Source of the DNA: Owenia fusiformis
Taxonomy: Eukaryota; Annelida; Polychaeta; Sabellida; Oweniidae
DNA: 64,000 bases
NCBI GenBank assembly: GCA_903813345.2
Contig: CAIIXF020000006.1
Span: 30,112,024 to 30,176,023, forward strand
Direction: 5' to 3'
In this document: in pieces, positions 12,476 through 61,846 of the stretch
Layout: every line of letters begins with the position of its first letter
Numbering within the stretch: position 1 is the stretch's first letter
Translations under genes and position numbers: made by a program
Notes under the pieces: model-generated
Databases searched by the model: none
The model's input: only the letters and a program-made list of their open reading frames with translations
Told to the model about the DNA's origin: nothing

Positions 12476-12479
12476 TGCC

Positions 12480-14528: not shown

Positions 14529-17500
14529 TCAAAGTTCAGATTTCACATTTTCGACAATGTCTCTGCCACGACACTTCTTAGGGTCTTCTATACTGAGAAT
14601 GTTTATAAACTTTGTCAGTTGTAGGTTCAATCCAGAAAAGTATTCCGCAAATTTCTCGTCGCATCTTTTAAGTCCTGAAAAAGTATGTTTTGAATGTTTT
14701 ATATCTTCAGTATTAAGTTTTTGCATCTACATTGATAAAAGGATTGATGGGCTTTTTGGCTTTGCCCTTCTCATTTTTTCTTATTTAAACCAGATCTAAT
14801 TTATATCACAGGTAACACTGAAGTAAAATTCATGAAATTTGAAATCTAAAACTGTGTTGGTGATTTGAAGCTGAACCTTTAATCTTACAATGGTATTCTT
14901 GTTGATATACATGTAGGATAGATGCAAAAGTCTTACCTCTAACAGTTCCCATGGCAATATTGCTCAGGAAGGTTGCCATGGAAATCTTAATGGGGAAATG
15001 TCCATGTACAAGTCATCCTTTTAACAGTTGCTATGGTAATCAAACAGGGGAAAGGTAGATAGATGCCCATGACTCTTACCTTTAGTGGTTGCCAAGGTAA
15101 TCATTTCTCATGGTAATCTCACTGGGGAAGGGCAATTGCACATGTCTTACATTTAACTGTTGTCACGGTAATTTAGTTGGGGAAGGGTGCACAAGCCTTA
15201 CCTTTTGTGGTTGCCATGGTAATGTAATGGCAGATGCATGTCTTCCCTTTATAGGTTGTTCTGGTATTCCCATTGGGGAGGTTAGATGCACAAGCCTTAC
15301 CTTTTGTGGTTGCCATGGTAACTAATGGAAGATGCATGTCTTCCCTTTATAGGTTGTTCTGGTATTCCCATTGGGGAGGTTAGATGCACAAGCCTTACCT
15401 TTTGTGGTTGCCATGGTAACTAATGGCAGATGCATGTCTTCCCTTTATAGGTTGTTCTGGTATTCCCATTGGGGAGGTTAGATGCACATGTCTTACCTTT
15501 TGCTGTTTTCCTGTCAAGTTTATTAAGATGTTGGCAAAAGTCATTAATTGAATTGCCATCTAGGTCATCCAGTTCAATCATTACAGACTGTTCTTGACCT
15601 CTGGAGAAAACATCAAATAGACAGCCTTTACTCTCTTCCTCCACTGCAACAGAAGTAAAATTATTTTGGATTATAATAGAATTTAGTTACTTAAAGGATA
15701 CATTCATTATCATTATGATAAATAGGTTGAACTTGTTCTTAACATGCTTTGAATAAAGACTTTATCTGGGTTGCAATATATTGTGATCAGTTTGTTTATT
15801 TTCTACAGATTGAAACATAAAAAAATTGATTAAATTGAATAAAATATGAGCCAATAACTTACACTGGTCCAAATGTAGCATCAATTCACTGGGGTAGAAC
15901 TCTACAACAGTAAACATGTGAAATTAAAGTCATTTTTGTCATGTATTGCTATTTGTAAGCAGTTTGATCGGCCAATTTAAATAAAAGTATGGCAATTTGA
16001 AAATTTATTAATTCATTAAAATATGAACAACAAATCGAATTATTGTATTGAACCTAGTCCAAATATCAGGAAGTATGATGTATTAGGTAAAAGACCATGT
16101 GCAGTATGGCAAGTGATTATAGACGGTCATATCTTTTACCTTAAGTACTTTCTGGGCATAAATACAGTGGTTTCTATCAAATATATTTAGTATATAGATG
16201 TATATGTTTTCTTTCAAGTGAAGTATCCAAGATGATAAAAATATCAATCGATCAATTCGAAAAATTATGAATAGGGACCCAACAGATGTCAACATTTTTT
16301 CAAAATATTGAACCTATTTACTCAAAAGAGGATCTCCTTTTTCTGATTTTATTGCATGAAAAGATTATTCAACAAGGGGTCTAAAACATCTTCAAAAATA
16401 GAATGGTATTGAAAGTCTAGTTTTGAAGATATCAATTTTCGATGACCAAAATTATGCTGAAAACAATGGATTGCATGAGTTTTCCCGATGGAAAAATATC
16501 ATGGGATATGTGTTTTTTAACTTTAAAGCATTTCAATACCCACCCTCTTAGTAATTGTTAATATTACGTCGAGGAGATTTTTGATGTGTTTAAATTGAGA
16601 AAAACAAGATCCTCTTCTTAGAAAATAACCCTAACATTTTTTAAAGAGTGCCAAGGTGGGGCCCTAATCCATAATTTTTCAAAGAGTCGGATTGATATTT
16701 TACTATCATTGGGACTTCACTTGAAAGAAAACATATTGTTTTAATGAAAAACACTGTATTTATGGCCAGAAAGCACATGGACCTTTAAAAACGAGATTAA
16801 TGGGAGAGCTTTCCTTTAAGGGAGAGGTACAAAGATACAGGTACAATATATGCACAGGGTAACACATATCTAAATGCCACTGGGAGAAGTCAAAAGTGTT
16901 CAGTATGCAATGTTCACATATACAGGGTGACAAAAAAAAATGCCACTCACATAATGTTAAGTTATGCAACATTATTTGGGTGGCATTTTTGTATCACCCT
17001 GTATTGTTTTTGACATGGGAAGCACTGAGAGAATAAAATTGAAACAAAAATGAGAAGTTCAAATCAAGAAGTGTTTTGATTAAAGTGTTAAAGTGATCAA
17101 AAATGTGGTCCTCCTCCTATCTTCTTCACCAATCAACACCAAAGAGCCCCAAAGTAGATACAGGAGATCAAGATTAAAGAGGTCTGTATATACACTGGTT
17201 TTAATATATGTAGCTACCGTCTGGTATGGCCATGTTAAGCTTCTCCAAACTCAGGTTTGGGCACATGAAGAGGTCCTTTCTGAAGAGAAGGGGAACATGT
17301 GCTAGTAATGTCTCCAGCTTCAGAAGGTTCTTGATTTCACCTTCACACTCTGAGCCCATCTCTGCTATGCAGTCCATACTTTTCTGAAATATATAATGCA
17401 GTATAGCATACATCAAAACTTCAGAATTATAGTGGCACCTGGTTCATCACTTGGATTCATTTAAACACAACTGTAATTTATCTATTTAACCATGCTTACA

Positions 17501-20500
17501 GTTCATTCCTCCCACAGTGACCAGTGAGCATACCTATGATCCCTATTTTAATCCCTAATATTTTAACAAGGAGCATGCATAGGATATAGAGTACTTCCCA
17601 CTATTTGTGGTTCCTGTCTATTTCAAAGGATAAGAAGAATGTTGATGGGCACTGAATGGATCCTTTGGGGGATTGAGAATAAAATGCCCAACAAAAAATG
17701 GTCTTTTTGTGTTCCTGTTGCAACACTGCAGAAAATTTACACATAAACAGAATAGTTAATACTTCTAGATATTCTAATTGAGAAATCAAATACCTGGATG
17801 CCCTCACATAGTCCCAGAGTTTGAGTGTTCTTGACGAAGCCTACTAAACATTTCTCTGCCGAACCAGCAGCACACACAGTATCCACTACAATAAATACAA
17901 AAATTTAAGTATGTCCAAAACAATAAAATTAAAGTATATCCATGACAATAAAATTAAAGTATATCCACCACAATAAAATACAAAATTAAAGTATATTGAC
18001 CATGTCCACTGACAAAGAAATACAAAATTAAAGTAAAACTACAATAAATTAAAGTATTTAAATTATTCCACCACAATAAAATACAAAATAATGTATATCT
18101 ACTACAATAAAGTACAAAATTAAAGTGTATTTCATACTTGAGTGGGTTTGGGGTAGATATCACCCGGGAATATATATCATATCTGAGGAGCGGGCAGGAT
18201 ATATTGTATATGTCCCGCTCTAGGCCAAATGCGGGCAGATATAATATATCCATCCCACTCCCGGGAATTTTTTCAAAAGTTTAAGAGTTTAAAAATTTTC
18301 AAAAAAGTTTAAATGTTACAATTCTATTGTATTTAACTGAAGTAATATTATGAAAATGTTAAATATGAATTGTGCTTTTACAGTATAGGCCTATCTTGTC
18401 ATTTGAAAAAGGTGGTAAAGGTTATATCTACCCCAAACCCACTCAAGTATGAGATACACCAGTTATGTACGGTCGGTTTTGGATACAGGGTTTATCCCAA
18501 GGGACATATGTGTATCTCACGAGGGAACGCAGTACATAACCCTTATATATCCACTACAATAAAACACAATGTAAAGGATATCCACTACAACAAACGTTTA
18601 GTATATCCACCATATATATTACAATAAAATACAAAACTAAAGAATATCCACTACAATAAAGTACAAATTAAAGTATATCCATTTTGCAAAGTCAATATTT
18701 TAACCTGTGTAAGTACCTACTTGACTATTCATTAATGATACTATTTATTGTGTTTCACTAACCGCCAACTTGAAATTATGAAATTGATGAGGGTAATCAA
18801 TTTCACTCCTCATAGGTTAACATAATCGACCCCGGACACGACCCGAGTTCATTCACCCACAATTCATTATGAGCTTAAATAATTTTCAAACATTGAATTG
18901 TACATTATCACTAAACAGAATGAAAGGTTTTTGTAACCTGTGTCCAGATCTGAAGATTGTGTTTACGTGAGACTAGCGATTGAAAGGTCCCTGTGTAAAA
19001 GAAATTATGGTCCCCTGGGGATTATGGTCCCCTTTCTACAAGGCCCTTACTGGCCCTGATTGTGGAGGTTACGATAATGAGGGAAAGATAAATATAAATC
19101 AATGGAAAGTAGGACCATAATCTGATAGGACCTCCTACCCGTTTACACCGGGTTCGACTTCCACATTGTGCAAATGTTGTACAAACAAGTACATATTCTT
19201 GATGAAGAAAAGTGATAATTTAGCAAGACGCTTCTTTTAAAGCACAGACCGTCTTTCTAATATTAGAGAGAGGACTTGTTCTCGGGTTGTCATTTCAAAA
19301 ATATTCTTATTCCATCAAGGATAGGCTAAAACCCTCGTCCCCTAGTATGTGCAACTAGAAACGTCACTGCCATTCATTCATTATCATTGTCTCCTGGGAA
19401 CGTGCTTGGTTTCAAAGCTTGCTTAATATTAGGTTTTCAAACCTAAATATTGAGTATTAAAATAATTATTTTAGATACATGAGTTCCTTCTTTGAAAGAG
19501 GTAGACTAGTTGTCTGGTTACTAGTCTTAATTTTATATTTTGGATCCCTGACGGTGTTATTTGTATTGAAAAAGTCAAAATATAGAGAAGTTCAGGGCGC
19601 CAGGCTAGAAACTTCTGAAATGGTAAAATGTTCAGAAAATACTAGGCTCTACTGTAACTAATACCAGACTTGCCAATTGAAATACAATATATTCTTTAGT
19701 AAATGCATGTTAAACTACCAATTATTATAGTAGACAGGTATTAATTGCAACCTTTTTTAAACAAATTCGATTTCTAAACATGAAAAGCAATGGCATGTCT
19801 CAAAAATGTATGAGAATTGTTGCCTAGTATTTGATCCATTTAAAACATTACGCCCATTTTGATCAAAATCCAATTGCGTTTTTTATTCAACCGGAGTCAA
19901 ATAGATCGGGACGACACAGACAGCATATAATCAAAAATAACACAAAACCATTGACATGAAGAATATGAGAGAAATCCAATATCATTGCATATGATATTTG
20001 TTTGATTTTAAAAAAGGAGTAAATACGAGCAACGAATAATTAAGGACATTTAAGGAACATGTCACAAGAAAGATACGAAATCACTAAAAGAACATATTTC
20101 AATGAAACTTTTTTTGCAAGGGTCAAGTCGGCCAAGCATCAATTTCAATCGGTCTCATTTTGACAATCATTGACAAACATTCAATAGAATAGTTGCGGTG
20201 ATCGGTTATATAATTGAATGCAGTTACGTGGCATAGCGTGTTCTGATTGGCTGAAATTGGATACACCTTGCCTTAGTATGTGTGAATTTTGTTTTCGAGT
20301 ATTTAAAAGTCGAGCATTACAAATACACGGATATTAATAAAATATGTTGTTATTGAAAGCATATCATGAATATTCTGTCTATTGATTACACAAGTTCCAA
20401 AACAAATAATATCCTGTTTTCTCTATTATTTTTCATCTCCTGCTTAACTGTTTCTGTAACTTGGAAATTCTAGAATCTTATATTCCTAAAATACTAGCTT

Positions 20501-22200
20501 ACTAATAAGCTTACATGTGATAGTAGGCCTGCCAATTGAAATACAATTTATTCTGTTGACCTCCAATGACTCTCGATGTTGTTATTCAATTTTTTTTATA
20601 AATGCCCATTGAATGTTTTTCTTTATGTCTTATATTCTATCATGTCAAATGTATTGTGTTAATCCCTTTTCTTAGTAAATCAAGCAATCATGAAATAAAA
20701 ATTGCTTAAAAGTCAATGCTCTGTTAGTGATTAAGCCTACTGACGTAAATATCGGGGGATACTGCTTTAAGCAAGCTGACATAGGGCTGCTCCTGCGGGA
20801 GTCAGTGTCACAAAGAGGTTATATATAATAGGGGTTGTATTGTAATATGCCAAAGGAAACCCCTGAGACAACGACTTGACATAATTTAAAAACCAAGCCA
20901 AATACCCACTGAGTACCGAAACGTGCTATTCACAACAGTGTGAATGACTAAGTTTTGCGTCGCTTCTTTACATTTCAATTTATTTTGATGCAAAATGCCA
21001 ATAACGAATGGAATAAATTATATTTATTCATTTATTACAATATATGGCACAGTCTGATATACTAATAGTATCTTACCAACCTCCTATATTACATCAATTT
21101 ACACTTGCAGCAATATAATAATGAACAAGTTATGAATATTTGGATTTAAATCACATAAGTTGCATGATTAAAGAAGCTTACCTGGTGTGTTTTTAAACTG
21201 ATATTGTGCAACGCTCTGAGCCTAAAAAAAATCATTCACTCTTTATTTGTCAGTGTTTCCATTTAAGAAATTCATCAGCTATCTTTGAAATTACAATTTT
21301 TATTATGTTAAGCTAAAAGCAGTGAACAGAAACTATCAAGTTTTTCTCTGAGTAAAACATTGGAACTTATAAATCGTGTAGGTAAATGAAAACATCGTAG
21401 ATCAATTCGAATGCTGTTTAAACAGTGCTTCTTCTATTTTACAAAGTGTATAATAAATGCTTCATGTATTATATACTATAATAAAACCCCTATAAAGTCA
21501 CCAAAACCCTTTTTACATTATTTGCTAAAACTGCCAAACATGTATCAAATGGTGGGTTGGAACCAATAGATTGAAGTGTACAAAATTATAAATAGTCTAA
21601 TGAATAATATCAATTTCCAACTTTTTTGTCTTTCAAATCATTGAGAATAAAAAATAAAATGTTTTCTTAAAGGATGTATATAACTATTTTCTTAAGCTTT
21701 AATAATAATCAATAATCATAAACAATAAACTGTGGATACTTTTTCTTGCATCACTGATTGGAGCAAACGTTATTTCGCTCTACCACTATTATTTTGTTTT
21801 ACTTTTTTGTCTTATATGTGTTGTAATTAAATATAATTCATCTCCAAATATTGTTGGGAAATGCATAAAAAATATGATAGTTAGATAGAAACTGACGTTC
21901 TTATAAAAGTATCGACCTATGAAATAAGTTTTCTTATGATATCAATAGTTTAAGTTTAGTTTAATATAGTTTATTTTTGTGTCACAAGCAATAATATTAA
22001 AATACATTTAAAACACTTTTTATAAAAACATTGCTTCTAGCCGATGCCGGCTTATGAGACACCAAGTTAATACATAAAAATACATACAAATAAAATTTCC
22101 AAACTTATTTCTGGGTTGTTTGTATACACGAAAATGTAGAGATACTTACCGAATGGTGTATGAGAAATATGTATACAATTCCGACCTTAAGGCAATCCAT
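14529..22200 (-). CDS. Unrecognised secreted Cys-containing protein, 7 exons, 226 aa
   Basis: Seven exons join in consistent phase on the minus strand: 22200-22150, 21221-21182, 17885-17794, 17383-17218, 15901-15863, 15643-15497 and 14674-14529. All have GT-AG borders and most have GTAAG-type donors. The first exon encodes a hydrophobic leader (MDCLKVGIVYIFLIHHS) fitting a signal peptide. The mature part has two comparable halves. The first has spaced cysteines (CAAGSAEKC...LCEGIQKSMDC...EC). The second (EEESKGC...DFCQHLNKLD...LKRCDEKF...KKC) repeats the plan, suggesting an internally duplicated extracellular helical domain. I do not recognise the family. The last residues are VENVKSEL. Two exon junctions are embedded in minisatellites (see findings). 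The short exons 2 (40 nt) and 5 (39 nt) rest on phase and splice consensus only. Confidence 0.72.
14925..15500. repeat. ~98-bp minisatellite carrying the exon-6 donor site
   Basis: At least three well-preserved ~98-bp units (from about 15189, 15288 and 15386) precede the true exon end at 15497. More decayed units reach back to about 14930. Each unit contains, on the minus strand, CAAAAG|GTAAG followed by GCATCTAACCTCCCC-like sequence, which is the exon-6 splice donor with its intron flank. The array fills most of intron 6 of the secreted-protein gene. Confidence 0.85.
16923..17001. mobile_element. 79-bp mini-MITE (Tc1/mariner type)
   Basis: The ends are CAGGGTGACAAAAA and TTTTTGTATCACCCTG, extended by TGCCACTCA / TGGGTGGCA. 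The element is flanked by TA on both sides (16921-16922 and 17002-17003). It is a nearly all-TIR foldback of 79 bases located in intron 4 of the secreted-protein gene. Confidence 0.85.
17886..18680. repeat. ~32-bp minisatellite carrying the exon-3 acceptor, split by a foldback insertion
   Basis: The plus-strand unit is about GTATATCCACTACAATAAA followed by ATACAAAATTAAA. On the minus strand it reads TTTATTGTAG|TGGATA, the same as the 3' splice site and first bases of exon 3 of the secreted-protein gene. Degenerate copies occupy 17886-18130 and 18545-18680. A foldback element with arms at 18126-18162 and 18421-18459 (GTGGGTTTGGGGTAGATAT and its complement) sits between the two blocks. Confidence 0.8.
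18126..18545. mobile_element. Foldback element inserted in the 32-bp array
   Basis: The inverted arms (18126-18162 and 18421-18459) share CATACTTGAGTGGGTTTGGG or its complement. The inner part has CCCGCTC / GAGCGGGC palindromic blocks. The tail ends CAGTACATAACCCTT, the terminal motif also seen at 10438-10452 and inverted at 24828. It is probably a non-autonomous DNA element that landed in the minisatellite. The exact borders are uncertain. Confidence 0.65.
21241..21323 (+). repeat. 83-bp direct repeat, copy 1
   Basis: These 83 bases (starting CTTTATTTGTCAGTGTTTCC) recur apparently without mismatch at 23490-23572. This copy lies just upstream of exon 2 (minus strand) of the secreted-protein gene, inside intron 1. 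The identity suggests a recent duplication or conversion. Confidence 0.9.
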
Positions 22201-23489: not shown

Positions 23490-23572
23490 CTTTATTTGTC
23501 AGTGTTTCCATTTAAGAAATTCATCAGCTATCTTTGAAATTACAATTTTTATTATGTTAAGCTAAAAGCAGT
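23490..23572 (+). repeat. 83-bp direct repeat, copy 2
   Basis: It is identical by eye to 21241-21323 and in the same orientation. It is flanked by unrelated sequence, except that CACT precedes both copies closely. Confidence 0.9.
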
Positions 23573-24278: not shown

Positions 24279-24311
24279 GCGCCAAAGTTTCAAACTTTTA
24301 AATTTCGCGCC
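24279..24311 (+). promoter_or_regulatory. Pair of E2F-like sites upstream of STKLD1
   Basis: GCGCCAAA (24279-24286, inverse of TTTGGCGC) and TTTCGCGCC (24303-24311) both match the E2F consensus TTTSGCGC. They lie 64-96 bases before the STKLD1 start codon, in a locally CG-richer stretch. The spacing suggests a core promoter just upstream of a short 5' leader. The motif match is seen in the sequence; cell-cycle or ciliary-type control would be inference. Confidence 0.5.
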
Positions 24312-24374
24312 ACGAAGTTTGAATAGAGTTGAATTGTGGGAAGGATTTGAAAACGAGGCGTTGCCAACTACAGG

Positions 24375-27300
24375 ATGGAAAAAATTGAAGGATATGAGGT
24401 AAAATTCAATCACTGTTTTAAGCATTAAACATAAGAATATTGGTATTTAAAAGATATTAGCACCGAGATGAATATAACATTATCCTAAGTATCCAATTGT
24501 TTTAACTTTTCAGGTTAAGAAACGACTGGGAAAAGGAGCCCAAGGATCGGTATTTCTTGTCGAACACGAAAATGCAAAAAATGGAGAAAAATTTGTGCTG
24601 AAAAAGGTACAGTTTAGTTTACTACTGCTAGAACTCTCCATTTATTTACTGTGAAACCGATTTCTTTGTCTTACCTTGTTTAGATCTTTAGTGGAAGGTC
24701 TCGTCGGGTTAGGAAAACTCCTCGAAAATGAGATCTGTTGCAAAAATAAACTTGACAATTTATCAAATTTTCTAAAATTGTAGACAGTAGAGCCAATGGC
24801 TATAGACTCTAGAGTAGAGCTCTAACTAAGGGTTATGTACTGGGAGGTCCTGAATCTAGATTAGATTTTATCCCATAAGAAATAATTGTGTATTTCTCAA
24901 GAGACTTCTTGGTTTTATGGGAGATGTACATATTTCCCGAGGGATAAACCCTACGATCCAAAACCAACTGTACATACATTGTAACAGATGTGTTCCATCA
25001 CCTACTGAGGTTCTAGGTACATTCTACCTTCTAACTAGATTCCAGAAATTTTAAAGGTGCAGATAGATACATGCAATATCATTGTAGGAATAAATAATAT
25101 TTTTAACTCAATACATTCCTCGCAATATTTGTCTTTTTGTATAGTCTAGGATGAAGAAAAGAGTCCTATGTTTAGTTCAATCCCCTATTGTATAGGTTAA
25201 TACCAATTTTTGCAAGAATATTACCCCACGCAAGACCATCCCCTGTATAGGTCCTGTAGTGTCCAATGTACTTTCAGGTTGAGTGCAATGATGAGAGCGA
25301 AGCCAACAAAGCATTTAAAGAGGTATGTTGTACTATAATTATATTATATTATGTACAAATTATGTATGTCTATACTCATTGTACTGGAGTATATCCAAAG
25401 TGTGATATTTTATCAAGTTTCTGAACATCCTCCTTATATATTTATTCACTCAACTACCTTTGTGAGACTAGAGGGGAAGAGAAAAGGAGGGAACACAGGG
25501 GCTTGATCCAAGACTGTCCTATATCAGTTCATATGATTAAGGTTTTACATCAGTCCATGAGACTGTCAGAGATTGTTATGTATTTGGTTCACCCCTCATT
25601 GGCTCACATAGAGAGCTTATGGGATTGACTAGGTATTCGTCTGTTCGTCCATTGATCCATCCGTCTTTATAACAAAATTGATGGACTTCCCTCAGAGGCT
25701 ATTATTATTTTCATCATTTTTACCAAGAAAAATGTCGATTTGTATCCAAATATTTTATTTGATAATTATAGTAACATCCTGTTACTGAAATTCTAGTCAG
25801 TCACGTGAAATATATCTAGCAGCTCTAATAATCCTCCCTTCAGCAACAAGGACGTTAATTGGCTATAACACAATGCAACCAAGACGTTTTGAAATTCACC
25901 AGATAATGTCATGGTTGCTGAAGTGAGGAATTCTCACTCTAGTATTGGAGCTGCATTATATAAATCAATCCACACTCAGATCCAGGATTTTATGATAGAG
26001 ACGGCGCTAATATTTCCCAAAAATGCGCGAGAATGAATGTCAGGCATACGCTATAGGGGGGAGGGGGAGGTGGTTGCACCCGGAAATTTTGGAAAAATAG
26101 ATTGCAATTTGGGGCAATCTGAGCATTTTCCCACATTTAATTGATGAATGACTTCATGAAGAAAGGCTTCTGTTTGAGACAAGTTTTTTATATTTATTTT
26201 CTGAATTTTTCTGAGAAATTCTAACACTATGACAGGTATATTGTTGTATTTTATCGGATTTTTGAATGAAAACATTTCAGGGGGTCTCACCCCATAGATC
26301 CGCTAGTGCAACCTCCTTTTGGTGAACATTTCAGGGGGTCGCACCCCCTAGATCCGCTAGTGCAACCTCCTTTTGGTGAACATTTCAGGGGGTCGCACCC
26401 CCTAGATCCGCTAGTGCAACCTCCTTTTGGTGAACATTTCAGGGGGTCACACCCCCTAGATCCGCTAGTGCAACCTCCTTTTGGTGAACATTTCAGGGGG
26501 TCCCACCCCCTAGATCCGCTAGTGCAACCTCCTTTTGGTGAACATTTCAGGGGGTCGCACCCCTTAGATCCGCTAGTGCAACCTCCTTTTGGTGAAAATG
26601 ATGAAAATAAATATTTCTTCCAACAGGAGTACATCCATTTTGTACCAGGGGTTGCTGTATATGTAGCATATGTTTTTTGAAGATTTCAAAGCTCTGGGAA
26701 TTACTGTTTTTGGTGTTTACTAGAAATATCTTATCATGTGATGAGGTGATTTGAGATTCAAAGAATAAAAATGAGTGAATTGTCCCAAATAATAGAATGG
26801 ATACTTTTATATAGAATCAAATGAGAATAAACTTCCAAGAATCAAATGAAATTAAACTTATCCTTACTTCCCTTTGAGCTTTATATAGATACTGAAAAGA
26901 AATAATAGACAAATACAAACAATCAAAGATAGATTAAAATATCTTATACTGTAAAGAACAACTAAAGATTTGAGATTTTGATTTCATGCCTTTTATATCA
27001 TATTAAAATAATTGATAAGAGTCTCAAAAATCAAATTTCTAAGAAAAAGTGCCAATTTGATTGCTCCTTTTGTATGATAACTAAAGAGCCATATTCCTGG
27101 AACTCTCATACAGTATAGTTGTTTAAGTTGTAATCTATTTAATCACAATGAACAGTGGTCATTAATTATTAACGAGAAAGGTATAAAAGGGATTATATCA
27201 GGATATATGGTAACATTGTAAATAATTGTTTCAGGATTCCGATTTCACTATAGAATAACCACACATTTTCCAATGTTCGACCAAAAAGTGACCAAATATT

Positions 27301-36300: not shown

Positions 36301-39300
36301 AACGATTGAGTCAAAATTTTTTCGGTAATTTATCATGTTTTGAGGTGTTTGAGGTAAATTTAAAGATAAAAACATTTGATTTTTACAACTTTATTTTGAG
36401 TAAAAAAATAAGTATATATTGAAAAACGAAATATCTTGATGGGCGATAATTGGTTTAATTGCAAATTGCATGTGACATTTTCTCGCTAAAAAACTGATAT
36501 AATACCTTAAAAACAGGTTCAATTCTACAAATAAGGCATACTAACCAAGCAGAAGCTGTCTGGTTTTGATTGTATAACATCAAAGTGGCCTGAATTATGA
36601 TATAAATCACCCATTTTAGGTTCTTTACCCCTTGTTATTGTTGTATTGTTACAGAGGGTGCAGCTGAAGTAATAGGTAATGTGGGGGGTGTACAGGATGT
36701 ACTTAGTGCCATGAGGACGTTCCCAAGGAATTCAGAACTCTGCGCTACATGTTGCAACGCCATCTGGAGTCTCTCAGTCACAGGTGAAGTATTTTCATAG
36801 TTATTTTATCATTTTTTGAATGTATTCTGCCTGATATTGAATCTACACCAAGGTTTGGTACATATACATTTCAAATGAACAATGCTTTGTTTTATGTGCA
36901 AAACCTTCAATAAAATAAGTTAACCATCAAATCCCCCTTGACATATTAAGCATTAAGAAATAGTTTTACACCAAAAAGTGTGGTTTAATCTACTTATGAA
37001 TGGCGGATGAATACACTGAGGGCTGGTAGTTATCTGATATTTCCATTTTATAATTTTGGTTTCTAATTTCAGAGGGTAATGCTAAGATAGTGACAGAAGA
37101 GAAGGGCCTTCAAGATGTATGCAATGCAATGTCCAACCACAGTGACAATGGTGATCTAATAGAAGCTGCCGCAGCTGCCTTACTCTCCCTCTCTATGGAA
37201 GGTAAGCTCCTTAGCTTGATGCATGCAAACAGAATCAATCAATCAATTCATTGAACTCCTAACATAAGCCCCTGTAAAGCCAAGCTTCAAATCAGAATCT
37301 GAGTCAAATATATGCTCTTTTTGTAGCATTTCTCTGATGTCTCGCATTGCTCTTCGGGAGAATGCAGTTGGTGCAATGCCACCCCCCTTTTTCCAAAGGT
37401 TACCTTTTTTCTTCCTAAAAGTCACCAGATTGCAGGAATAAGGTCAAGTTTTGACAGCTTCACTCTCTTAGTTACTTAGGATCTGCAATTCAAACCTCCA
37501 TTTTGAAAACATGCATGCAGACATGTCTTCTCTCCCTCTCTTATGATACATGTATTTGGTATTCTAGATGACAACATGGAGCTAGTAAGTGACCTAGACT
37601 GTGTTGGGTTACTGATTGCTGGTATTGAGGCACATATACTGGATATTTATAAATGTTCTATATTTGTTATTCTAGATGCCAACATGGAGCTAGTGAGTGA
37701 CCTAGACTGTGTTGGGTTACTGATTGCTGGTATTGAGGCACATATACTGGATATTTATAAATGTTCTATATTTGTTATTCTAGATGACAACATGGAGCTA
37801 GTAAGTGACCTAGACTGTGTTGGGTTACTGATTGCTGGTATTGAGGCACATATACTGGATATTTATAAATGTTCTATATTTGTTATTTCTAGATGACAAC
37901 ATGGAGCTAGTGAGTGACCTAGACTGTGTTGGGTTACTGATTGCTGGTATTGAGGCACATATAGGGGATATTTATAAATGTTTTATATTTGTTATTTCTA
38001 GATGACAACATGGAGCTAGTGAGTGACCTAGACTGTGTTGGGTTACTGATTGCTGGTATTGAGGCACATATACTGGATATTTATAAATGTTCTATATTTG
38101 TTATTTCTAGATGACAACATGCAGCTAGTGAGTTACCTAGACTGTGTTGGGTTACTGATTGCTGGTATTGAGGCACATATACTGGATATTTATAAATGTT
38201 CTATATTTGTTATTTCTAGATGACAACATGGAGCTAGTGAGTGACCTAGACTGTGTTGGGTTACTGATTGCTGGTATTGAGGCACGTACATATACTGGAT
38301 ATTTATAAATGTTCTATATTTGTTATTCTAGATGACAACATGGAGCTAGTGAGTGACCTAGACTGTGTTGGTTTACTGATTGCTGATATTGAGGCACATA
38401 TAGGGGATATTTATAAATGTTCTATATTTGTTATTTCTAGATGACAACATGGAGCTAGTGAGTGACCTAGACTGTGTTGGGTTACTGATTGCTGGTATTG
38501 GGGCACATATAGGGGATATTCATAAATGTTTTATATTTGTTATTCTAGATGACAACATGGAGCTAGTGAGTGACCTAGACTGTGTTGGGTTACTGATTGC
38601 TGGTATTGAGGCACGTACATATACTGGATATTTATAAATGTTCTATATTTGTTATTCTAGATGACAACATGGCGCTAGTGAGTGACCTAGACTGTGTTGG
38701 GTTACTGATTGCTTGTATTGGGGCACATATAGGGGATATTTATAAATGTTTTATATTTGTTATTCTAGATGACAACATGGAGCTAGTGAGTGACCTAGAC
38801 TGTGTTGGGTTACTGATTGCTGGTATTGAGGCACATATACTGGATATTTATAAATGTTTTATATATGTTATTCTAGATGGCACATGGAGCTAGTGAGTGA
38901 CCTAGACTGTGTTGGGTTACTGATTGCTGGTATTGAGGCACGTACATATACTGGATATTTATAAATGTTCTATATTTGTTATTCTAGATGACAACATGGA
39001 GCTAGTGAGTGACCTAGACTGTGTTGGGTTACTGATTGCTGGTATTGGGGCACATATAGGGGATATTTATAAATGTTTTATATTTGTTATTCTAGATGAC
39101 AACATGGAGCTAGTGAGTGACCTAGACTGTGTTGGGTTACTGATTGCTGGTATTGAGGCACATATACTGGATATTTATAAATGTTCTATATTTGTTATTT
39201 CTAGATGACAACATGGAGCTAGTGAGTGACCTAGGCTGTGTTGGGTTACTGATTGCTGGTATTGAGGCACATATACTGGATATTTATAAATGTTGTATAT

Positions 39301-42300
39301 TTGTTATTTCTAGATGCCAACATGGAGCTAGTGAGTGACCTAGACTGTGTTGGGTTACTGATTGCTGGTATTGAGGCACATATACTGGATCTTTATAAAT
39401 GTTCTATATTTGTTATTCTAGATGACAACATGGAGCTAGTGAGTGACCTAGACTGTGTTGGGTTACTGATTGCTGGTATTGAGGCACATATACTGGATAT
39501 TTATAAATGTTGTATATTTGTTATTTCTAGATGACAACATGGAGCTAGTGAGTGACCTAGACTGTGTTGGGTTACTGATTGCTGGTATTGAGGCACATAT
39601 ACTGGATATTTATAAATGTTGTATATTTGTTATTTCTAGATGACAACATGGAGCTAGTGAGTGACCTAGACTGTGTTGGGTTACTGATTGCTGGTATTGA
39701 GGCACATATACTGGATCTTTATAAATGTTCTATATTTGTTATTCTAGATGACAACATGGAGCTAGTGAGTGACCTAGACTGTGTTGGGTTACTGATTGCT
39801 GGTATTGAGGCACATATACTGGATATTTATAAATGTTCTATATTTGTTATTTCTAGATGACAACATGGAGCTAGTGAGTGACCTAGACTGTGTTGGGTTA
39901 CTGATTGCTGGTATTGAGGCACATATAGGGGATATTTATAAATGTTCTATATTTGTTATTTCTAGATGACAACATGGAGCTAGTGAGTGACCTAGACTGT
40001 GTTGGGTTACTGATTGCTGGTATTGAGGCACATATACTGGATATTTATAAATGTTCTATACATGTATTTGTTATTCTAGATGACAACATTGAACTAGTGA
40101 GTGACCTAGACTGTGTTGGGTTACTGATTGCTGGTATTGAGGCACATATACTGGATATTTATAAATGTTCTATATTTGTTATTTCTAGATGACAACATGG
40201 AGCTAGTGAGTGACCTAGACTGTGTTGGTTACTGATTGCTGGTATTGAGGCACATATACTGGATATTTATAAATGTTCTATATTTGTTATTCTAGATGAC
40301 AACATGGAGCTAGTGAGTGACCTAGACTGTGTTGGGTTACTGATTGCTGGTATTGAGGCACATATAGGGGATATTTAAAAATGTTCTATATTTGTTATTC
40401 TAGATGACAACATGGACCTAGTGAGTGACCTAGACTGTGTTGGGTTACTGATTGCTGGTATTGAGGCACATATAGGGGATATTTATAAATGTTCTATATT
40501 TGTTATTCTAGATGACAACATGGAGCTAGTGAGTGACCTAGACTGTGTTGGGTTACTGATTGCTGGTATTGAGGCACATATAGGGGATATTTATAAATGT
40601 TCTATATTTGTTATTCTAGATGACAACATGGAGCTAGTGAGTGACCTAGACTGTGTTGGGTTACTGATTGCTGGTATTGAGGCACATATAGGGGATATTT
40701 ATAAATGTTCTATATTTGTTATTCTAGATGACAACATGGAGCTAGTGAGTGACCTAGACTGTGTTGGGTTACTGATTGCTGGTATTGAGGCACATATAGG
40801 GGATGCAAAGGTTGTCAAGAATGCATGTATGGCACTAGCTAGTCTCGTAGAACCTGATGGTATGTACTAAGTATACAGTAATATGTTTTAAGGAAAACTG
40901 AAATTTAATGAGATCTGCATTTCTTTTGATTTATTGTATTATATCATCATTTTAAAACAATGATTTTCAAAATAGTGTTTTATACATTATTAATTTCAAA
41001 GAAGTTGTATTTTTCTGTAAACATGTAAAACTTCAAATTCTGATTTCTGATTGTAATTAGTGGTGTATGTGACATACATGTAGATTTAGCTAGAGTCAAA
41101 TTAGACTGGACATTGCCCCAATAGTTAATAACAAGATGCTCCAATTTTCAATGATTTTCATCACAACATTATAATTTCAGAGGAGAGTGCGTTCAAAGTG
41201 CTCAGCAACAATGAAGTGTCAGGAATTCCAATTGTTATGAAGGCATACGAGTCTCACAAAGATAACGCAGAAGTTGTAGAAAATATTTGTACATTATTTA
41301 TGGAACTTGTAGAATATGGTAAGTACTGCTTCAATGTGTAATATATAATCTACAGTAAAACCTGTGTATATTGAACATTTTTTGCCAAGGAAAACCTGTT
41401 CAATGTTGGTAGGTGTTCACTACAGAGGGTGATTCTTTATACAGAAGTCAATAGAGTATGTGTGGAGGAAGGATGTCCACTGGTTTACTAGAGAGAGGTG
41501 TTCACTAAGACAGGTTTTACTGTATTAATCCTTATTTGGTCTCATAAGAATTTGTTATTGATGTAAACTATAACAGACTAAAGCAATTTATATTAGGACA
41601 TTATTGTATTTGTTTCTATAGAAAAATGTGTTTTCATATTGCACATAATTTACTCATAGAAAGCATAAAGACAGATGAGGTATACAAACATTTTATTGTT
41701 TATTTTACCAGATGATATATGTAAAGATTTGATATCTTACAATGTACCAAAGATGCTGAAAGAAATTCGTAAAATGTTTATAAAAAATGAGGTGAGAAGA
41801 CGTGGTTATGGTGGCTTTATTTAAGTATTTAAAGTAGTTATATGCTATAAAACGCATTTATTCATTCTCTGAAAACAAAGAGGATGAACGTGTTTTATTT
41901 TACACATTTTGGCGTTATGTTGTTTTTTGATGTTTTTATGAAAGATGCATGGGGTAGATTACAGTTCTTCTACTTAATTCGGTGCTACTTATTTTGGCGG
42001 ATTCGCTGTTTTGAAAATTTGGCAACTGCTTAATTTGGCGAACTTGCAATATTGCAATGTATATACAACGATTGAATTATGAAATATTTAATTTGGTGGA
42101 CTTCAACAATTTAGAAGTACAGTATATGTACGAAGGTGAAATGAAAACATGAAAAGCAACATACATATCCAAAAAGTGCTTTTTATATTGCTTATACCAT
42201 CATAATGCTTTTGGAAATACTGAAATGAATGATAGGATTGCATTTACGGAAATGATAAATGCAATTGCACCATTTCTTTCACATGTATGGCTGCCTTAAA

Positions 42301-45530: not shown

Positions 45531-45539
45531 TCAATTCCA

Positions 45540-47985: not shown

Positions 47986-47986
47986 A

Positions 47987-54200: not shown

Positions 54201-57200
54201 GTACACTATTCAGTAAATAGAGATTACACAAGAAATATTATCACAGATTTCTATGATCAAAACAATCTGATTGGTTGGTAGTATCACACACCACATCATG
54301 GGTATGAATCGGGAGCACATAGCATGGAAAAAAAGCCATAGTACATACCTGGGGCCTGTTTCTAGAAAAATCAAAAATTACGATTGGAAATGAGGAATCG
54401 TGACATTTCAACCATTGCCCAAAAGGCAACCAGTTACCATTCCCAAGGGTGGGAATGGAAATGCAACTGTTTGAACCCTGCACAGAAATTGTGTTCTGAT
54501 GTGGGAGATAAGGAGCATTTTGTAGAGTTTCGTTAATTTTCAAGTTAAAAAATTAACATTATAGATCCTTGTCCTGGCATGTTTTTTTTATCTGCAAAGC
54601 TTTTTAAATAAACAGATGTCATGTACTTATAAAGCTCTTAAATAAGATTCTAAAACCAATGTACAGACTACCCAGAACAAGCAGGTGATGAAGCATGGCT
54701 AACTTATTTCTTATTTTTAGATGGGCATTTTCAAGAGATAAGTAAATCAATCAATTCCTTGCCTTGTTTGGATTATCAAGTAAACAATTTAATAAAATTC
54801 AACATTTCTTGACCATGAAGTTAATTTGTGAGCAATTGTGATGTTTCAAGGTTGTTTAGAGTCAGATTAAAATGATTTTAGTTTTGTTATTGTTAAATAA
54901 AAATATCACGAAAAGACAGATTTCACAACCTTGATGTCAAAAATAATTGTGAAATGTTCACTGATTTGGACAAACTTTAGATATGAATATATTTTAGCTT
55001 AAAAGTGTTTCTCCAGTATATACTTGTATACCAGTAGTTATGTAGTTATAGATGAAGATATATAATGTGAGGGTGTATAAAGAAAGTGCACACATTACTA
55101 GAGGTGTCACGGATACCCGATTTTGTTCCGGTCCACGGAATTATGCCCTCGGAACGGAACACGGAAAAAAAATTAAGAATTTCGGTTCGGTTCCGGAACA
55201 AGAACATTTTACCCTTTCACAACTTCTGGCCCTTGAATCTCCACAAAACAGCATTTTTCTTTCAATATTTTGTATCAAAAGAGGTTCATTCTTTTTACTC
55301 CTCTTTGAAGAGTTTTGAAGAGCTTTTCGCTACCAAATAGACCTAGATGATCAGATTATTTTAATCTAATACACGCAGTCACTCTGTTCCGAACCGTTCT
55401 GAAGCAAAATGTTCGGAACCGAACTGTTCCTATTTTTTGTTCCGTGACATCTCTACACATTACACTAAACAGGAATTAGCTTGTGGAAAGCAACACAAAC
55501 CTCATTCTCAAAGTTGGCCCAGCATATAAACTAAATGAAAAGTTGCATATACAATATAAAATGTACAATAAATAAAGTTAAACTAAATCTACAGTATTAT
55601 AGATTTTCTATAAGCATGCAATATAAAAGCGAGGGGTTAAACTATAAAGAATCCTCTCATACATACAATTGTATATATTGCTACATTAAACATTTTACAA
55701 CATATGCTACACTATAAAGCATGCAATGAAAGAAATAAAAACATGCATTGGTCTCAGAACAGAGAAACATTGAACTTTTAAAAAAACAGAGAAACTTTTG
55801 ATTAGTTAAAGCCTTTACCTTGACTATTTTCTTGCCTTTCAGACCAGCATTTTGACATAAATTATTGAGGTCCTCATGCCATTCTAATCCCTGCTGTTGA
55901 CATTCGATCAACTACAAGAAAAGAACATTTAAAATGTTTTGTTTTTGATGTTCAACATTATAAAGCTAATGTACAAAAATCAAGTCAAGTCAGATATGTC
56001 TGAGTCAAAATGTACCAAAGTCAAGTTCAAGATATGTCAGTGTTGTGTTCAAGAGTCGAATCCAGGTGTCAAAGCCAAGTATTTCAAAGTCAAGTCCAAG
56101 GTATTTCAAGTCAATATCTGGGTGTTTCAAAGTCAAGTTGTGTTATAGTTAAGTTTAACATGTGACGCAATAATTCAACTGAGGACATTGTCTGGTGATA
56201 TTTACAATGAACCAGAGAGTGATTCCCTCTTATAAGTCAAAATTTTAAACTACATGTATAATCTGTTTATAGTCTGTTTTTATAAATTAAAACAAATGAT
56301 ATTACTCAAAATGTTATGCAAATTAAGCCTCACCTTCTCATGTAGAGCATCGGCTTTCTGTATGAGGTCCTTACAGCCAATTATCAGGGACTCATAGGCT
56401 ACCATGCCCCGTCTTATGATCTCTGGAACAGAGCCCTCTATGTCCAACCAGGGGTACTAAAAATGAGAAATTCCCTGATTTTAAAGGCATGTCAATTTTA
56501 TTGAGTAACAGCAGTTGGACATGTTGCAAAAGGTAATAAGGAAAAGTTATAATATAAGTATTATATGAGAGTTCAATTGCCCTTTTATTATCCAATAAGG
56601 ATTTTATTTCTTAGACAACGCACTTGTGTACAAAAAACTGGTATAAATACACACAAAGTATGAATAATTACAGTCCAAGAAGCGCTGCAGTATTTTTATG
56701 AATAATTAAGTATATCCTTGAACTATATCAAACTCTACCCAACACAAATATAATTTTATAGACTATAGAAGAAGTATTTATAAAATAAAAAAAATGAACC
56801 TAATAATTACCTTCATAAAGGGAATTTTTTTAATATTTTATTATTAATACAGTATAAACAAAATGTAATTGTTTTGTATTATCCTTGAATTATATTAGGC
56901 TATAAAAGAACTATTAATGAAACTATCAAACATTTTAATATCTGATACATCATCATGAACTTTATCATACTAATAAATGGAAAAGTTCAATATCTTATCA
57001 TTCACACAAACCCAATGTGTCTCTGTTTTTTTGTATTTTTAGCATATCTGTATATTTTATACATGTACATTCTGTATTCTTCTTATCATAATATATCTAT
57101 GAACTTTAAACACAATACATGGTCTTAAATTATGCAATACAATGAGTGTGAATAATCTTTTAAATAAATTGCATCAATATTGAACAACACCATTATGTAC

Positions 57201-60200
57201 CTCATCAGTTTCTCGTAGACGCAGAGTTGGTTTCTCTTGTGAATTATGTACCCTGGTAGAGAGTATACGCATACACTGCTTTAGGTTTGTGTTGGTAGCT
57301 AGACCACATTGTTCTTTGAAGAACGCCAGCGCTATCTGAACGTGGTCTCTCAAGTCAGTGGAGTCTCGAAGTGGCTGCACAGCAGTCTACAAGTATAGGG
57401 TGTTCCATTGAACTTTATTTGATGGGATAATAAGATCATGTGTCTCAATGGGGTGGTTCCCTCAGAGGAGTGAAGTATATTCCTTGGTTTGTAGACCCTC
57501 AGTTTTTTTTTATATTTCAGGGGCCCCATATTATCTAAGTCCATATTTCATTTTTATCTCTCTATGCAAGATTTTTAATCCTTTATATTTCATACTTAAG
57601 TGACCCCCTTTTGTAGCTGTTTGTTCTGTTGTATAGGGTAACTACAATCAAATAAAAGACTGCAATTACTCACCTTAAATGTCTCATCTATACATTTGAC
57701 ACCAACTATTTTGACATTAGTGTAATCTCTGGATTTCTTGTGCTTCTTAGAAGTTGAGCCACCCTTCTTGGCTTTCTGAAAACAGAATGAACAAATTGTG
57801 TTTACAGTTTTTGCGATAATTTGTTTGCTTTTCCTGTCAAGTAAAAATGTTTGAATAATCTGTAATTTACTTATAACTTTAAAAATTGACAAGGGTTGTC
57901 TTCCCGTGGAAATTCTGACCTTCAAACCTTGAATTCAGTAATGTGAAAGAGAAGTGATTTTTGAAGTGATGCTTTTTTATCTCATTTGTATTATCAAGAG
58001 ATGATTATACAAAGCAGCTTCTCAATGCTGGTAAACCTTGTGAATTCTGTAGCTTCAACATATAACACATAGTGGGGAGGTTCTGTTATAGATTAGCATG
58101 AACCATACTTACACCACTGCCATATTTACTGCTGATTGCTATATGTACAAAGAGTGTAGTGTTCTCTAAGGGTTCCCCTGTATAAGACATCAGCTGTATA
58201 TGCCTGTATCCTGCAACACAAGATATAGTCCCTGTGATTACACAAAAAATATTCCATGTGATTGCACAAAGAAAATAGTTCCCGAGATAACACAATAAAG
58301 TAGTCCCTGAGATAACAAAAGAAAACAATCCCTGTGATTACATAAGAAAGTAGTTCTTGAGATGACACAATGAGAAAAATTTCTCTAATATTAGATACAT
58401 ATAGTAATTGATGATAACTGAATACTGCCACAGAAATGGGATTACAAAAAATGAAATAATTTACTTACGCCTTGCCAACTCAAAGATGAGTGTGACCTTT
58501 GTCAATAACAACTGTCTATAAAGAAAACCAGTTTTTGATCTCATTCAATATTGAACTCACCTGTTTGCATACATGTGAAAGGTATGGTATATTGCCCTAT
58601 AAACTCACCTGTTTGCATACATCTGAAAGGTATGGTATATTGCCCTATAAACTCACCTGTTTGCATACATGTGAATGGTATGGTATATTGACCAATAAAC
58701 TCACCTGTTTGCATACATGTGAATGGTATGGTATATTGCCCTATAAACTCACCTGTTTGCATACATGTGAATGGTATGGTATATTGCCCTATAAACTCAC
58801 CTGTTTGCATACATATTGTGAATGGTATGGTATATTGCCCTATAAACTCACCTGTTTGCATACATGTGAATGGTATGGTATATTGCCCTATAAACTCACC
58901 TGTTTGCATACATGTGAAAGGTATGGTATATTGCCCTATAAACTCATCCCCAATGAACTCATCATCAAGAACACAGAATCGAACCAGGGCCAGCTCAGGT
59001 AGGTTAACTTGGAACTCAAAACTTTCATCATAGATTGGGTTATATCCTGAAAATTTTAATGTATTAGCTATTATTACAATAAGAGTGGTCAGATTCTTAA
59101 GTATTTTGATATTACACTTAGAAATTTTGAATTATCTTGCACTCTGCCACTTTGTTGCCCCCTTTCACTTATTCCCCCCATTCCAACTCATGAGCCATAA
59201 TACAGGTTGGGTTGCTAGAATTAGAGTTTTCAAAAATAATGACTGAATGATATACAGTGTGCTTTCAGCATATGTGCCTATGCCTATGTACCATAATTCC
59301 AATCATGTACAAGTTCTCTTTAAAACGGGAATATGAATATCTGTATGATCTCACCATTATTTGGCACAGTTTTAGTTCTTTCTTCGGCACAGTCTGCTGG
59401 TATACCAAACAAGTCTATGCTGACATAAGGATCTGTTACGTCACCTTTAGCACTGCTGCCCTTTGGCTTTGGGAACTGTTGACCACTGATCACCTGTGGG
59501 TAAGGAAGAAAAGTATATATTGGCAAATGATCCTGCTGGTCATGCTATTATTTAGAGAAGAGTGGAATTGAATAGAATCTGCAATAAATTACTAAGTAAA
59601 ATAAGGTGTATTCTAAACATATACTTAAATATATAAACCTTATGGACCATCCATTTTTGTAAAGTTTAAGAAACACACAATGGATATGTTATAGTTAGAT
59701 ACGGGATTGGACTTTAAATTACCAATAGGCCTACTTGAAATGAAATGGCAATGACTACGTAAATTGTTTAGCATTTTGATTTTTAATCCCCTATTTGGTA
59801 TCTGAATCACTTTGCGTGGTATTTCTTCCTAAATGACAATATCTCTCAACTTATAAGTAATATATACATGTAACTGATAATTGAACATTTGCTGAAGCAG
59901 CATCTATGAACTAGATTGAATTGATACAATACCATTAAACTCATTCATATGCATAAATAATAAATGTAACGTGATAAAATTTATTCTGTGTATGTATAAT
60001 TATGAGATCATCAGCCAGATTCATTGATGTTTACAGAAATTAGAGCACTTTTGATCTAAATATACCCTGTATACCTTAATTTGCAATATTTGCGGTGAGA
60101 CGCCAGGTATGATGTCTCTTGTATTGGCACTGAAGTAAGCAATCTCCTCTCTCATAATAGCAGGTTTCAGAACATAACCGCAGCGGCCATTTTGTCTGAA

Positions 60201-61846
60201 TCTGCCATCATTTAGGTCCATCATAAGCCCTGCAGTCTGATAGTTAAGGGACACTAATAAAAGAAGAAATCACAAAACATTAAATATTGTATTTGATCAA
60301 GGGATCAACATTTTAATTTTTACTTATCATAATAATGACATATCAATTAGGCAACATAAGGCAACTGGGAATCAGTCACTTCAAAGGAAAAACATTGTAC
60401 ATGAAGAGACAAGTGGACATTCAGTTTTACTCAGTTGATGATATCTTTGAACTTGTAACATGTTATATTCTATGCTTTGCCATCTTAAGGTGCTTCTTTA
60501 CCTGGAATTTTCGTTAAACAATTGCTTGTATGCTATATCATGGAGCCACCTATGGCCAGTGAACAACTACCTTAACCCTCACCTAGTTGGCAGCCACAGT
60601 TCCAGAGGTCTTGTGGGTTAAAGTTACTTGAGTCTACCCTGATACCATTGGGGTACACCCTGGACAGGTACCTCTTATTGTGACTGACAAACTCCTCTGG
60701 ATGTGCAACAGCTAGCCTTATAGCTGTAGATTCACTAAATGAGCACAATTCATTGCACTTTTCTGAAAAACATTATTAAAATCAATTATGTGATGGTCTC
60801 CTCATCTGAGCAATTCATTATTGCACTTTTCTGAAAAACATTATTAAAAACAATTATGTGATGGTCTCCTCATCTGAGCAATTCATTGCACTTTTATGAA
60901 AAACATTATTAAAATCAATTATGTGATGGTCTCCTAATCTGAGCAATTCATTATTGCACTTTTCTGAAAACATTATTAAAAACAATTATGTGATGGTCTC
61001 CTAATAATCTGAGCAATTCATTGCACTTTTCTGAAAAACATTACCAAGAACAATTATGTGATGGTCTCCTAATCTGAGTAATTCATTATTGCACTTTTCT
61101 GAAAAACATTATTAAAAACAATAATGTGATGGTCTCCTAATAATCTGAACAATTCATTGCACTTTTCTGAAAAACATTATCAAGAACAATTATGTGATGG
61201 TCTCCTAATCTGAGCAATTCATTATTGCACTTTTCTGAAAAACATTATCAAAATCAATTATGTGATGGTCTCCTAATAATCTGAGCAATTCATTGCACTT
61301 TTCTGAAAAACATTATTAAAAACAATTATGTGATGGTCTCCTAATCTGAGCAATTCATTGCACTCAAATTATTACGTGACATTATATGTGATGACCTGAT
61401 CTCTCGTTATTTATCAAATGTTTATGTGGAGCATAAAAAGTACAATGTAGTGATCAACTCAAAATTGAAAATATTGGTCGACAAACCAGATTTAGGCTCC
61501 TTTGGTTGCTGACTGGGTCTTACTGAAACTATTGAAGCTAATGGAAATTGACTTTTTCAACTTTATCACACACCATATTGGCCCAAGAATATACATGATA
61601 AGGAATGTTCTTTTAAAGTAATTGGCGAAATTCACATTGCAAAGTTAGTTGGCCCATTTGAAGCCAGAATGGAAATAATCGGATTTGATGCCCATTAAAG
61701 ATGTGGGCCTATGTGAAATCACCTAGAATACATTACAACTTACGGTTTTGAGCTGATATGTGAAAATCCTCAAATCTCACTGATTTGCAATAGTTGACTA
61801 TATCTGAAAGAGGCCTCACCATACGGATCTTCCTTGTAGAACCCTC
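51256..61846 (-). CDS. PLCL: Phospholipase C-like protein (PLCL/PRIP), 3' part: Y domain, C2 domain, C-terminal region
   Basis: Twelve exons join in phase on the minus strand: 61846-61820, 60762-60583, 60253-60075, 59493-59355, 59046-58900, 58210-58113, 57775-57674, 57386-57201, 56456-56334, 55911-55819, 52447-52352 and 52089-51256 (stop). The 5' part lies beyond 64000. The second and third exons encode the PLC Y box ([40 protein letters not shown]). The next three encode the C2 domain ([10 protein letters not shown]...DPYV...[14 protein letters not shown]...TLFVHI). The following exons ([11 protein letters not shown]...[27 protein letters not shown]) are characteristic of PLCL rather than PLC-beta, -gamma or -delta. 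The tail of about 277 aa is acidic, Ser/Thr-rich and probably disordered, longer than in vertebrate PRIPs. Family members bind inositol phosphates and phosphatases and lack PLC activity; the X domain that would prove inactivity is outside the window. Confidence 0.93.
53785..54095 (+). repeat. Interspersed repeat, copy B (inverted relative at 25975)
   Basis: Encodes [16 protein letters not shown] on the plus strand, then TCTATTTTCAAAATTTTTCA and GGTGCACCACCCATAGCAT, matching the complement of 26035-26180. It lies in PLCL's last long intron. The same peptide has survived while the surrounding bases diverged. Confidence 0.65.
55099..55455. mobile_element. hAT-type MITE with perfect 8-bp target duplication
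   Basis: The termini TAGAGGTGTCACGGA and TCCGTGACATCTCTA are inverted, with one mismatch. The flanking 8-bp direct repeats CACATTAC (55091-55098 and 55456-55463) are identical. Internal GGTTCGGTTCCGGAAC-type palindromes make most of it self-complementary. It has no transposase. It lies in a PLCL intron and is the same terminal family as 3162-3613. Confidence 0.93.
58211..58400. repeat. ~36-bp degenerate array abutting the acceptor of PLCL exon 58210-58113
   Basis: On the minus strand the units read like TTGTGTTATCTCAG|GGACTA or TTGTGTAATCACAG|GGACTA. They lead into the true acceptor CTTGTGTTGCAG|GATACA. About five units are visible, most retaining CAG|GGA. Confidence 0.65.
58545..58915. repeat. 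48-bp minisatellite, 8 copies, carrying the PLCL C2-exon donor
   Basis: The minus-strand unit ends ATGTATGCAAACAG|GTGAGTTTATAGG. Donor borders fall at 58900, 58852, 58801, 58753, 58705, 58657, 58609 and 58561, spaced 48 bp apart with one spacing of 51. The whole array is open in the PLCL frame, repeating [16 protein letters not shown]. The other strand is open too because the unit is a multiple of three. Confidence 0.96.
60745..61370. repeat. 64/68-bp minisatellite, ~9 copies, carrying the PLCL Y-domain exon acceptor
   Basis: The plus-strand unit contains AATTCATTGCACTTTTCTGA and AAAACATTATTAAAAACAA, then TTATGTGATGGTCTCCTAATCTG. On the minus strand this is TTTTTCAG|AAAAGTGCAATGAATT, the 3' splice site and first bases of exon 60762-60583. 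One copy (near 60890, TTATGAAAA) has lost the AG; the others keep it. Confidence 0.93.

Follow-up and report, generated by a model that had tools for sequence, protein, structure and literature searches.

Minisatellites containing splice sites recur at exon-intron borders in genes of Owenia fusiformis

The stretch of DNA analysed here, hereafter the window, comprises 64,000 nucleotides of the Owenia fusiformis assembly GCA_903813345.2 (contig CAIIXF020000006.1, positions 30,112,024 to 30,176,023 of the forward strand). Within it, a phospholipase C (PLC) gene, a gene with kinase and ARM-type domains, and a secreted-protein-like gene carry tandem arrays of short units at their exon-intron borders. 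We describe the anatomy of these arrays, their recurrence in other genes, and their enrichment over random placement in sampled loci. The arrays of the window were taken from a Tandem Repeats Finder (TRF) list of 51 rows, and the borders were then read from the sequence. An exon-intron border lies inside five of the six candidate arrays (Table 1). A preliminary description of this DNA had counted at least five such arrays, probably six; the sixth, a diverged array in the PLC gene, ends in the intron, 4 bp from the junction at 58211/58210, which it leaves out.

Table 1. Tandem arrays and adjoining exons in the window, numbered from its first letter.
Feature	Position	Strand	Gene	Units or exon	Splice site	Basis
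Array	37553..40798	+	kinase/ARM	~30 units, mostly 108/109 bp	3' site	
Exon	40728..40859	+	kinase/ARM	real exon, fed by last (exon-side) copy		sequence; ARM-type Pfam match of joined exons
Array	58554..58946	-	PLC	8 units of 48 bp	5' site	
Exon	58900..59046	-	PLC	C2-domain exon	ends at array's first 5' site	Pfam C2, E 1.9e-11
Array	60752..61359	-	PLC	9 units of 65-68 bp, not in frame	3' site	
Exon	60583..60762	-	PLC	PI-PLC-Y exon	starts at array's last 3' site	Pfam PI-PLC-Y, E 2.7e-21
Array	14925..15502	-	secreted-protein-like	98-bp units	5' site, AAAAG/GTAAG	
Exon	15497..15653	-	secreted-protein-like	exon	ends at exon-side copy	open frame and splice signals
Array	17878..18681	-	secreted-protein-like (same gene as 98-bp array)	diverged 25-32 bp units, 17900-18130 and 18546-18681	3' site	
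Exon	17794..17885	-	secreted-protein-like	exon	starts at 3' site of array 17878..18681	open frame and splice signals
Array	58215..58370	-	PLC	diverged 25 bp, 72% match	adjoins 3' site, junction outside	

The PLC gene has PI-PLC-Y and C2 domains in Pfam and matches PLC-delta1 (E 4e-48), and on these matches the identity of its exons is firm. When joined at the exon-side site, the PLC exons align across the junction to PLC-delta1 with no insert. The kinase/ARM gene has Pkinase and ARM-type matches in Pfam. No Pfam family matched the secreted-protein-like gene.

Each array combines an exon part and an intron part in its own way. The 108/109-bp unit joins an intron end of about 31 nt, carrying a CTAG 3' splice site, to 77 nt of exon start. 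The 5' site ACAG/GTGAGT (slash, exon-intron border) is present in all eight 48-bp units, and the 3' site CAG/AAAAGTGCAAT in eight of the nine 65-68 bp copies, the remaining one reading CAT. The 98-bp array has 3.2 units at 97% over 15188-15502, with diverged copies reaching back to about 14925; the exon share of its unit is only about 6 bases. In the 25-32 bp array the exon-side 3' site is TTATTGTAG/TGGATA-like, and the AG has been lost in several inner units. TRF places the start of this array 14 bp away from the exon, but the stretch on the exon side can be aligned with the array over the junction, at a score matched by none of 500 shuffles. A stretch with inverted ends (GAGTGGGTTTGGGGTAGATAT) at 18140-18545 splits the same array and is probably a small mobile element. 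The earlier statement that every unit contains the splice site therefore does not hold for the 25-32 bp array. Of the unit lengths listed in that description (32, 36, 48, 66, 98 and 109 bp), the 36-bp unit was not found.

In the window a junction lies inside four of the 11 arrays with a TRF score of at least 200 and a period of at least 20. The window had been singled out as striking, and the chance test was therefore moved to other loci. We used 35 loci, 15 with a myosin head and 20 with a kinesin motor, chosen by the positions of Pfam matches before the sequence was read. The myosin loci represent 15 of 19 gene clusters by our own grouping; four cover part of the gene only, and one (L017) has only two matches. 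For kinesin, 20 of about 38 clusters qualified, having at least three matches and a span within 10 kb. Exon models were built by tblastn among the genes and splice-signal scoring, and were corrected by eye at arrays, which gave 199 exons and 357 modelled junctions in 186,243 bases. For the null model, each array was collapsed to one unit, which was then positioned randomly inside its own locus.

Comparison with random placement had been named in the preliminary description as the test of its proposal. The version run here, on a sample of independent loci and not genome-wide, did not refute that proposal: 14 of 24 arrays (score at least 200, period at least 20) contain a junction, where 4.35 are expected; none of 400,000 simulations reaches 14. 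With the score lowered to at least 80, the count is 15 of 41 against 5.19 expected (P 5e-6). The excess is found in myosins alone (6/10 vs 1.5 expected, P 4e-4), in kinesins alone (8/14 vs 2.8, P 1e-3), and after removal of the two richest loci (8/16 vs 1.9, P 1e-4). At least one junction array is present in 10 of the 35 loci, and both kinds of border are hit, with eight arrays at 5' and seven at 3' sites. About 4% of the sampled motor-gene junctions (14-15 of 357) carry a junction minisatellite.

Several arrays required a decision. For one array (L038 6496) the overlap with the junction is just 4 bases, and P without it is 1e-5; L038 6644-6697 was dropped as a sub-array. The array L041 6334-6591, which begins with intron base 1, was scored as lacking a junction, and an exon-start repeat of about 166 bp in L032 was missed by TRF and is uncounted. 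A kinesin gene at C2:23266359-23279778 (L053), in which the match rows already showed an array, falls outside the span rule and was excluded from the test; read separately, it has a 3'-site array with units of about 159 bp.

Some features of the sampled loci stand apart from the counts. In one myosin gene (L020 1990-3789) a single intron carries arrays at both of its ends, with seven copies of the 5' site and 12 of the 3' site, giving 84 possible site pairings, one of which is the normal junction. A 33-bp repeat at L018 5797-5951, by eye Tyr/Ser-rich and coding-like, lies on the strand opposite the myosin gene and is possibly part of a nested gene. Several introns of L026, L028 and L038 contain a dispersed element with GGTGTTTGGTGTCTGTAACAAATGGCAGG-like sequence, at times tandemly duplicated. 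Finally, in a muscle-myosin-like gene (C9:37986009-37994334, minus strand; G000) one myosin-head exon (profile positions ~18-84) is present in about 12 separate copies, which makes the gene a candidate for a large cluster of mutually exclusive exons.

The excess is concentrated close to the junction. With collapsed units of score at least 200 in the 35 loci, arrays cover 3.5% of exon bases within 30 of a junction and 3.3% of the first 30 intron bases. Further into the intron, coverage is 1.5% at 30-59 bp, 0.7% at 60-119, 0.24% at 120-249, 0.57% at 250-499 and 1.9% beyond 500. A purely neutral account, with duplications falling uniformly and those that cross one border being harmless and kept at the intronic rate, draws on the fact that a one-border duplication leaves an intact exon-side site, on the strong arrays that lie elsewhere than at junctions (10 of 24), and on the coverage of far introns (1.9-2.2% at 500 bp or more). 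It predicts junction coverage no higher than that of introns, whereas 3.3-3.5% is observed at junctions against 0.2-0.6% at 120-499 bp, and 14 junction arrays against 4.35 expected. Neutral tolerance alone does not explain the junction peak and is disfavoured; we regard it as an unlikely explanation. The preliminary description had set such tolerance of redundant sites beside preferential duplication at splice junctions. Tolerance is needed but not sufficient, and preferential duplication near exon edges appears to be the better reading. GC-rich DNA was also considered as the sole driver. The GC content is 0.38 in junction units, 0.36-0.38 in non-junction units, 0.33 in introns and 0.42 in exons, so that non-junction units are about as GC-rich as junction units.

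Arrays of the same kind were also sought across the genome (498 Mb in 525 contigs; C1 to C12 of 32-62 Mb each make up about 478 Mb) as three close copies of a 5' splice motif. Closely spaced triplets of the motif CAGGTGAGT were counted at 141 places and those of its reversed pattern at 12 (single motif 4855 vs 1602); for AAGGTAAGT the counts are 92 and 62 (single motif 7130 vs 11815). The normalised excess is about 3.9-fold and 2.5-fold, respectively; places within an array are not independent, so no P is given. We read the upstream flank of 20 arrays and found an exon-like open frame at 12. Seven arrays come from the first places listed among the 141 for CAGGTGAGT, with an exon-like frame at four and none at three. 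Thirteen flanks come from all 92 places for AAGGTAAGT, with such a frame at eight, none at four, and one array (L055) running past the flank; two of the 13 lie in the same C8 region, whose third group was left out. At nine of the 12 positives the first motif stands at the exon end, and at three (L048, L052 and L058, the last being the weakest of the 12) the exon ends at least one unit before the first perfect motif. Protein matches support seven positives, namely SMC4 (E 5e-22), INTS9 (7e-17), FANCI (1e-15), NCS-1 (2e-10), UGDH (1.5e-10), an Ig domain (1.7e-6) and SFT2 (2.2e-6); the other five rest on open frames. The candidate labels DIP2, ABCC and HVCN1 for three of these five were unsupported by searches (ABCC and HVCN1 against Pfam only).

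As the preliminary description had held, the arrays do not derive from one dispersed element. Introner-like elements that supply splice sites are known. Here, no cross-similarity was found among 20 junction units, and the 98-bp unit, compared with the whole genome, matched only itself and its own diverged copies. We therefore reject a single dispersed element inserting at splice sites, to which we assign practically no probability. Since the unit sequences differ from locus to locus, each junction array probably arose on the spot. Faulty assembly or wrong exon models could in principle create such a pattern, as tandem arrays are hard to assemble and the secreted-protein-like gene is without homology support. 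The units within arrays nevertheless vary by substitutions and indels, the junctions are canonical, and the exons match myosin, kinesin, PLC, SMC4, INTS9 and FANCI, which makes an artefact highly improbable.

Unit lengths show no sign of selection on the reading frame. Nine of 31 arrays have a commonest spacing divisible by 3, which is the chance level, and several arrays mix unit lengths. Because the lengths ignore the frame, most copies could not be added in frame, and in most genes their inclusion would cause a frameshift; the exon-side copy would therefore have to be the one used in conserved genes. This bears on the proposal that multiple splice sites are favoured for splicing or isoforms. 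An open frame runs through the PLC 48-bp units, each of which would add 16 amino acids, and through parts of the 108-bp array, as that proposal would have it. The random unit lengths argue against it, and added units would probably not be tolerated in conserved motor and SMC4 exons, so that we consider a selected function very unlikely.

The breakpoints offer some information on how units are delimited. Of 23 arrays tried, four extend cleanly at both ends, with microhomology of 0 (L014), 1 (L012), 2 (L022) and 6 bp (PLC 48 bp); in the last, exon and 5' site share TGAGTT, which belongs to the 5' site. In all nine measured 3'-site arrays the intron contributes at least 24 nt to the unit, compared with eight of 19 5'-site arrays (Fisher P 0.004, with the cut-off chosen post hoc; Mann-Whitney P 0.02), and the 3'-site result has a chance of 0.015 if the border fell anywhere in the unit. 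These figures omit five unmeasurable arrays, two at 3' sites (L027b and L041a, cut by locus ends) and three at 5' sites (L033, L058 and L059). The contrast fits the idea that the exon-side copy at a 3' site must bring its own branch point, while GTRAGT is enough at a 5' site.

Junction arrays are also less diverged than others, with a median match of 96% against 85.5-87.5% (P 0.01-0.03). This speaks against mere longer persistence and fits either frequent new formation or a process in which arrays form everywhere, the exon-side copy, maintained by selection, re-seeds those at junctions and so keeps them uniform enough to be detected, and intronic arrays decay. The latter could also account for the far ends of the window arrays, which look more diverged than the exon side, and agrees with the exclusion of cluster boundaries from homogenisation described for amphioxus globin arrays (PMC3087553). 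The identity difference fades without arrays of dispersed elements, though, and decayed junction arrays should be rare under such re-seeding, yet the array at 17900-18130 and that of L033 are diverged. We judge such re-seeding possible but on the whole doubtful.

Three window arrays outside the candidate set may be mentioned. One 49-bp unit occurs in two arrays 380 bp apart (11551-11894 and 12273-12478), with a 5' splice-like GCAGGTGAGG on the minus strand; no exon was identified there. A 54-bp x 6 array at 26271-26596 is open in frame on both strands.

Minisatellites over exon-intron borders are known in amphioxus as mirages, which were reportedly first described by Canestro in 2002. We consider it likely that the arrays studied here are minisatellites of this type, produced by border-crossing duplications that start preferentially at exon edges, with the exon-side copy spliced and the others acting as decoys. 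In such a mechanism, a tandem duplication would take in one exon-intron border, with some exon sequence, the entire splice signal and a short intron segment, and the duplicated pair would later expand and homogenise as a minisatellite. Because the duplication crosses one border only, the exon-side copy would keep a complete splice site. Exon definition would join the normal exon, the remaining copies would stay in the intron as decoys, and the gene product would be kept. The exon-side copy is most likely the one spliced, a prediction of copy use made from sequence. The excess at junctions probably results from duplications that start in or at exon edges, the survivors being those that cross one border.

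Several observations weigh against this explanation. The strong arrays without a junction belong here, as does the coverage of far introns, which consists largely of long repeat-element-type units; given this coverage, the junction contrast holds against nearer introns. When all noncoding bases are pooled, 0.8% are covered, compared with 3.9% of junctions (score at least 200). The exon search overlooked an estimated 34 or so motor-domain exons, and the models were then extended by six exons because of the arrays lying on them, a bias that favours the finding; raising the expectation 1.2-, 1.5- and 2-fold gives binomial P values of 1e-4, 1e-3 and 0.02. Eight of the 20 motif arrays lack a resolved exon (seven with none, one running past the flank), the unit breakpoints were measured by hand, and the identity difference has a P of 0.07-0.11 without five dispersed-element arrays. 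In the PLC and kinase/ARM genes, where the 48-bp units and 108-bp runs are open in frame, some inner copies may be used.

We tentatively suggest, as an open possibility rather than a probable one, that splice junctions in this lineage are hot spots of tandem duplication. If so, by extrapolation thousands of genes would hold redundant splice-site arrays that splicing must ignore, and these would continually supply new exon and intron borders in animals far removed from chordates. Each array is a natural experiment with up to about 30 competing splice sites, in which splice-site choice, decoy avoidance and intron-border evolution are testable. Where such arrays occur, gene models and the alignment of RNA may be incorrect.

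The link to amphioxus drawn in the preliminary description was correct as to mirages, but the host itself is not amphioxus. In the Hox cluster on C1, one protein has KLTGP following its homeodomain and is taken to be Lox5, and another is presumably of Lox2/Lox4 type; the host is therefore a lophotrochozoan. A search with COX1 to identify the species gave no match. These proteins rule out a cephalochordate, the known mirage distribution. No report of mirages outside cephalochordates was found in the literature searched, which was covered in part, and none on annelid or exon-boundary repeats appeared among the matches listed, which does not imply absence in print. The present work adds a host outside the chordates, many affected genes, and an excess, at 5' and 3' splice sites alike, that was measured against random placement.

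The known systems that come closest compare as follows. In human CBS, the 31-bp variable number tandem repeat (VNTR) c.1444_1467+7 has 16-21 repeats at a single locus (PMC2630376); by its coordinates, the unit consists of 24 exonic and 7 intronic bases, so that a stretch around a 5' splice site is multiplied as in the PLC 48-bp array, but unlike the arrays described here it is confined to one human locus. The CBS variant 844ins68 duplicates the intron 7/exon 8 junction (PMC2630376), and as we propose for the present arrays, the extra stretch is removed by the choice of one of two sites; it has two copies only, in contrast to arrays. Intron gain by tandem duplication (Rogers 1989; Gao and Lynch 2009, as cited in PMC3087553) also relies on redundant splice signals supplied by the duplication, although there a new intron forms inside an exon, whereas here an existing border is multiplied. 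Amphioxus mirages, found in Adh3 and the globins BflGb6 and BflGb9 (PMC3087553) and in PGBD5 and TnC (PMC3902484), are tandem units over exon-intron borders on 5' and 3' sides that reportedly leave regular splicing undisturbed and are unstable in length (PMC3087553; PMC3902484). The arrays in this lophotrochozoan share with them border-spanning units at 5' and 3' sites, locus-specific lengths, and AG or GT in many but not all units. For mirages, instability and reverse transcription PCR (RT-PCR) evidence is reported from a handful of cephalochordate genes, whereas the present arrays are known from the sequence of one assembly, in many genes and with a test against random placement. In the reports consulted, mirages were noted case by case in amphioxus, and the lophotrochozoan cases suggest that such arrays are older, or more often reinvented, than those reports indicate.

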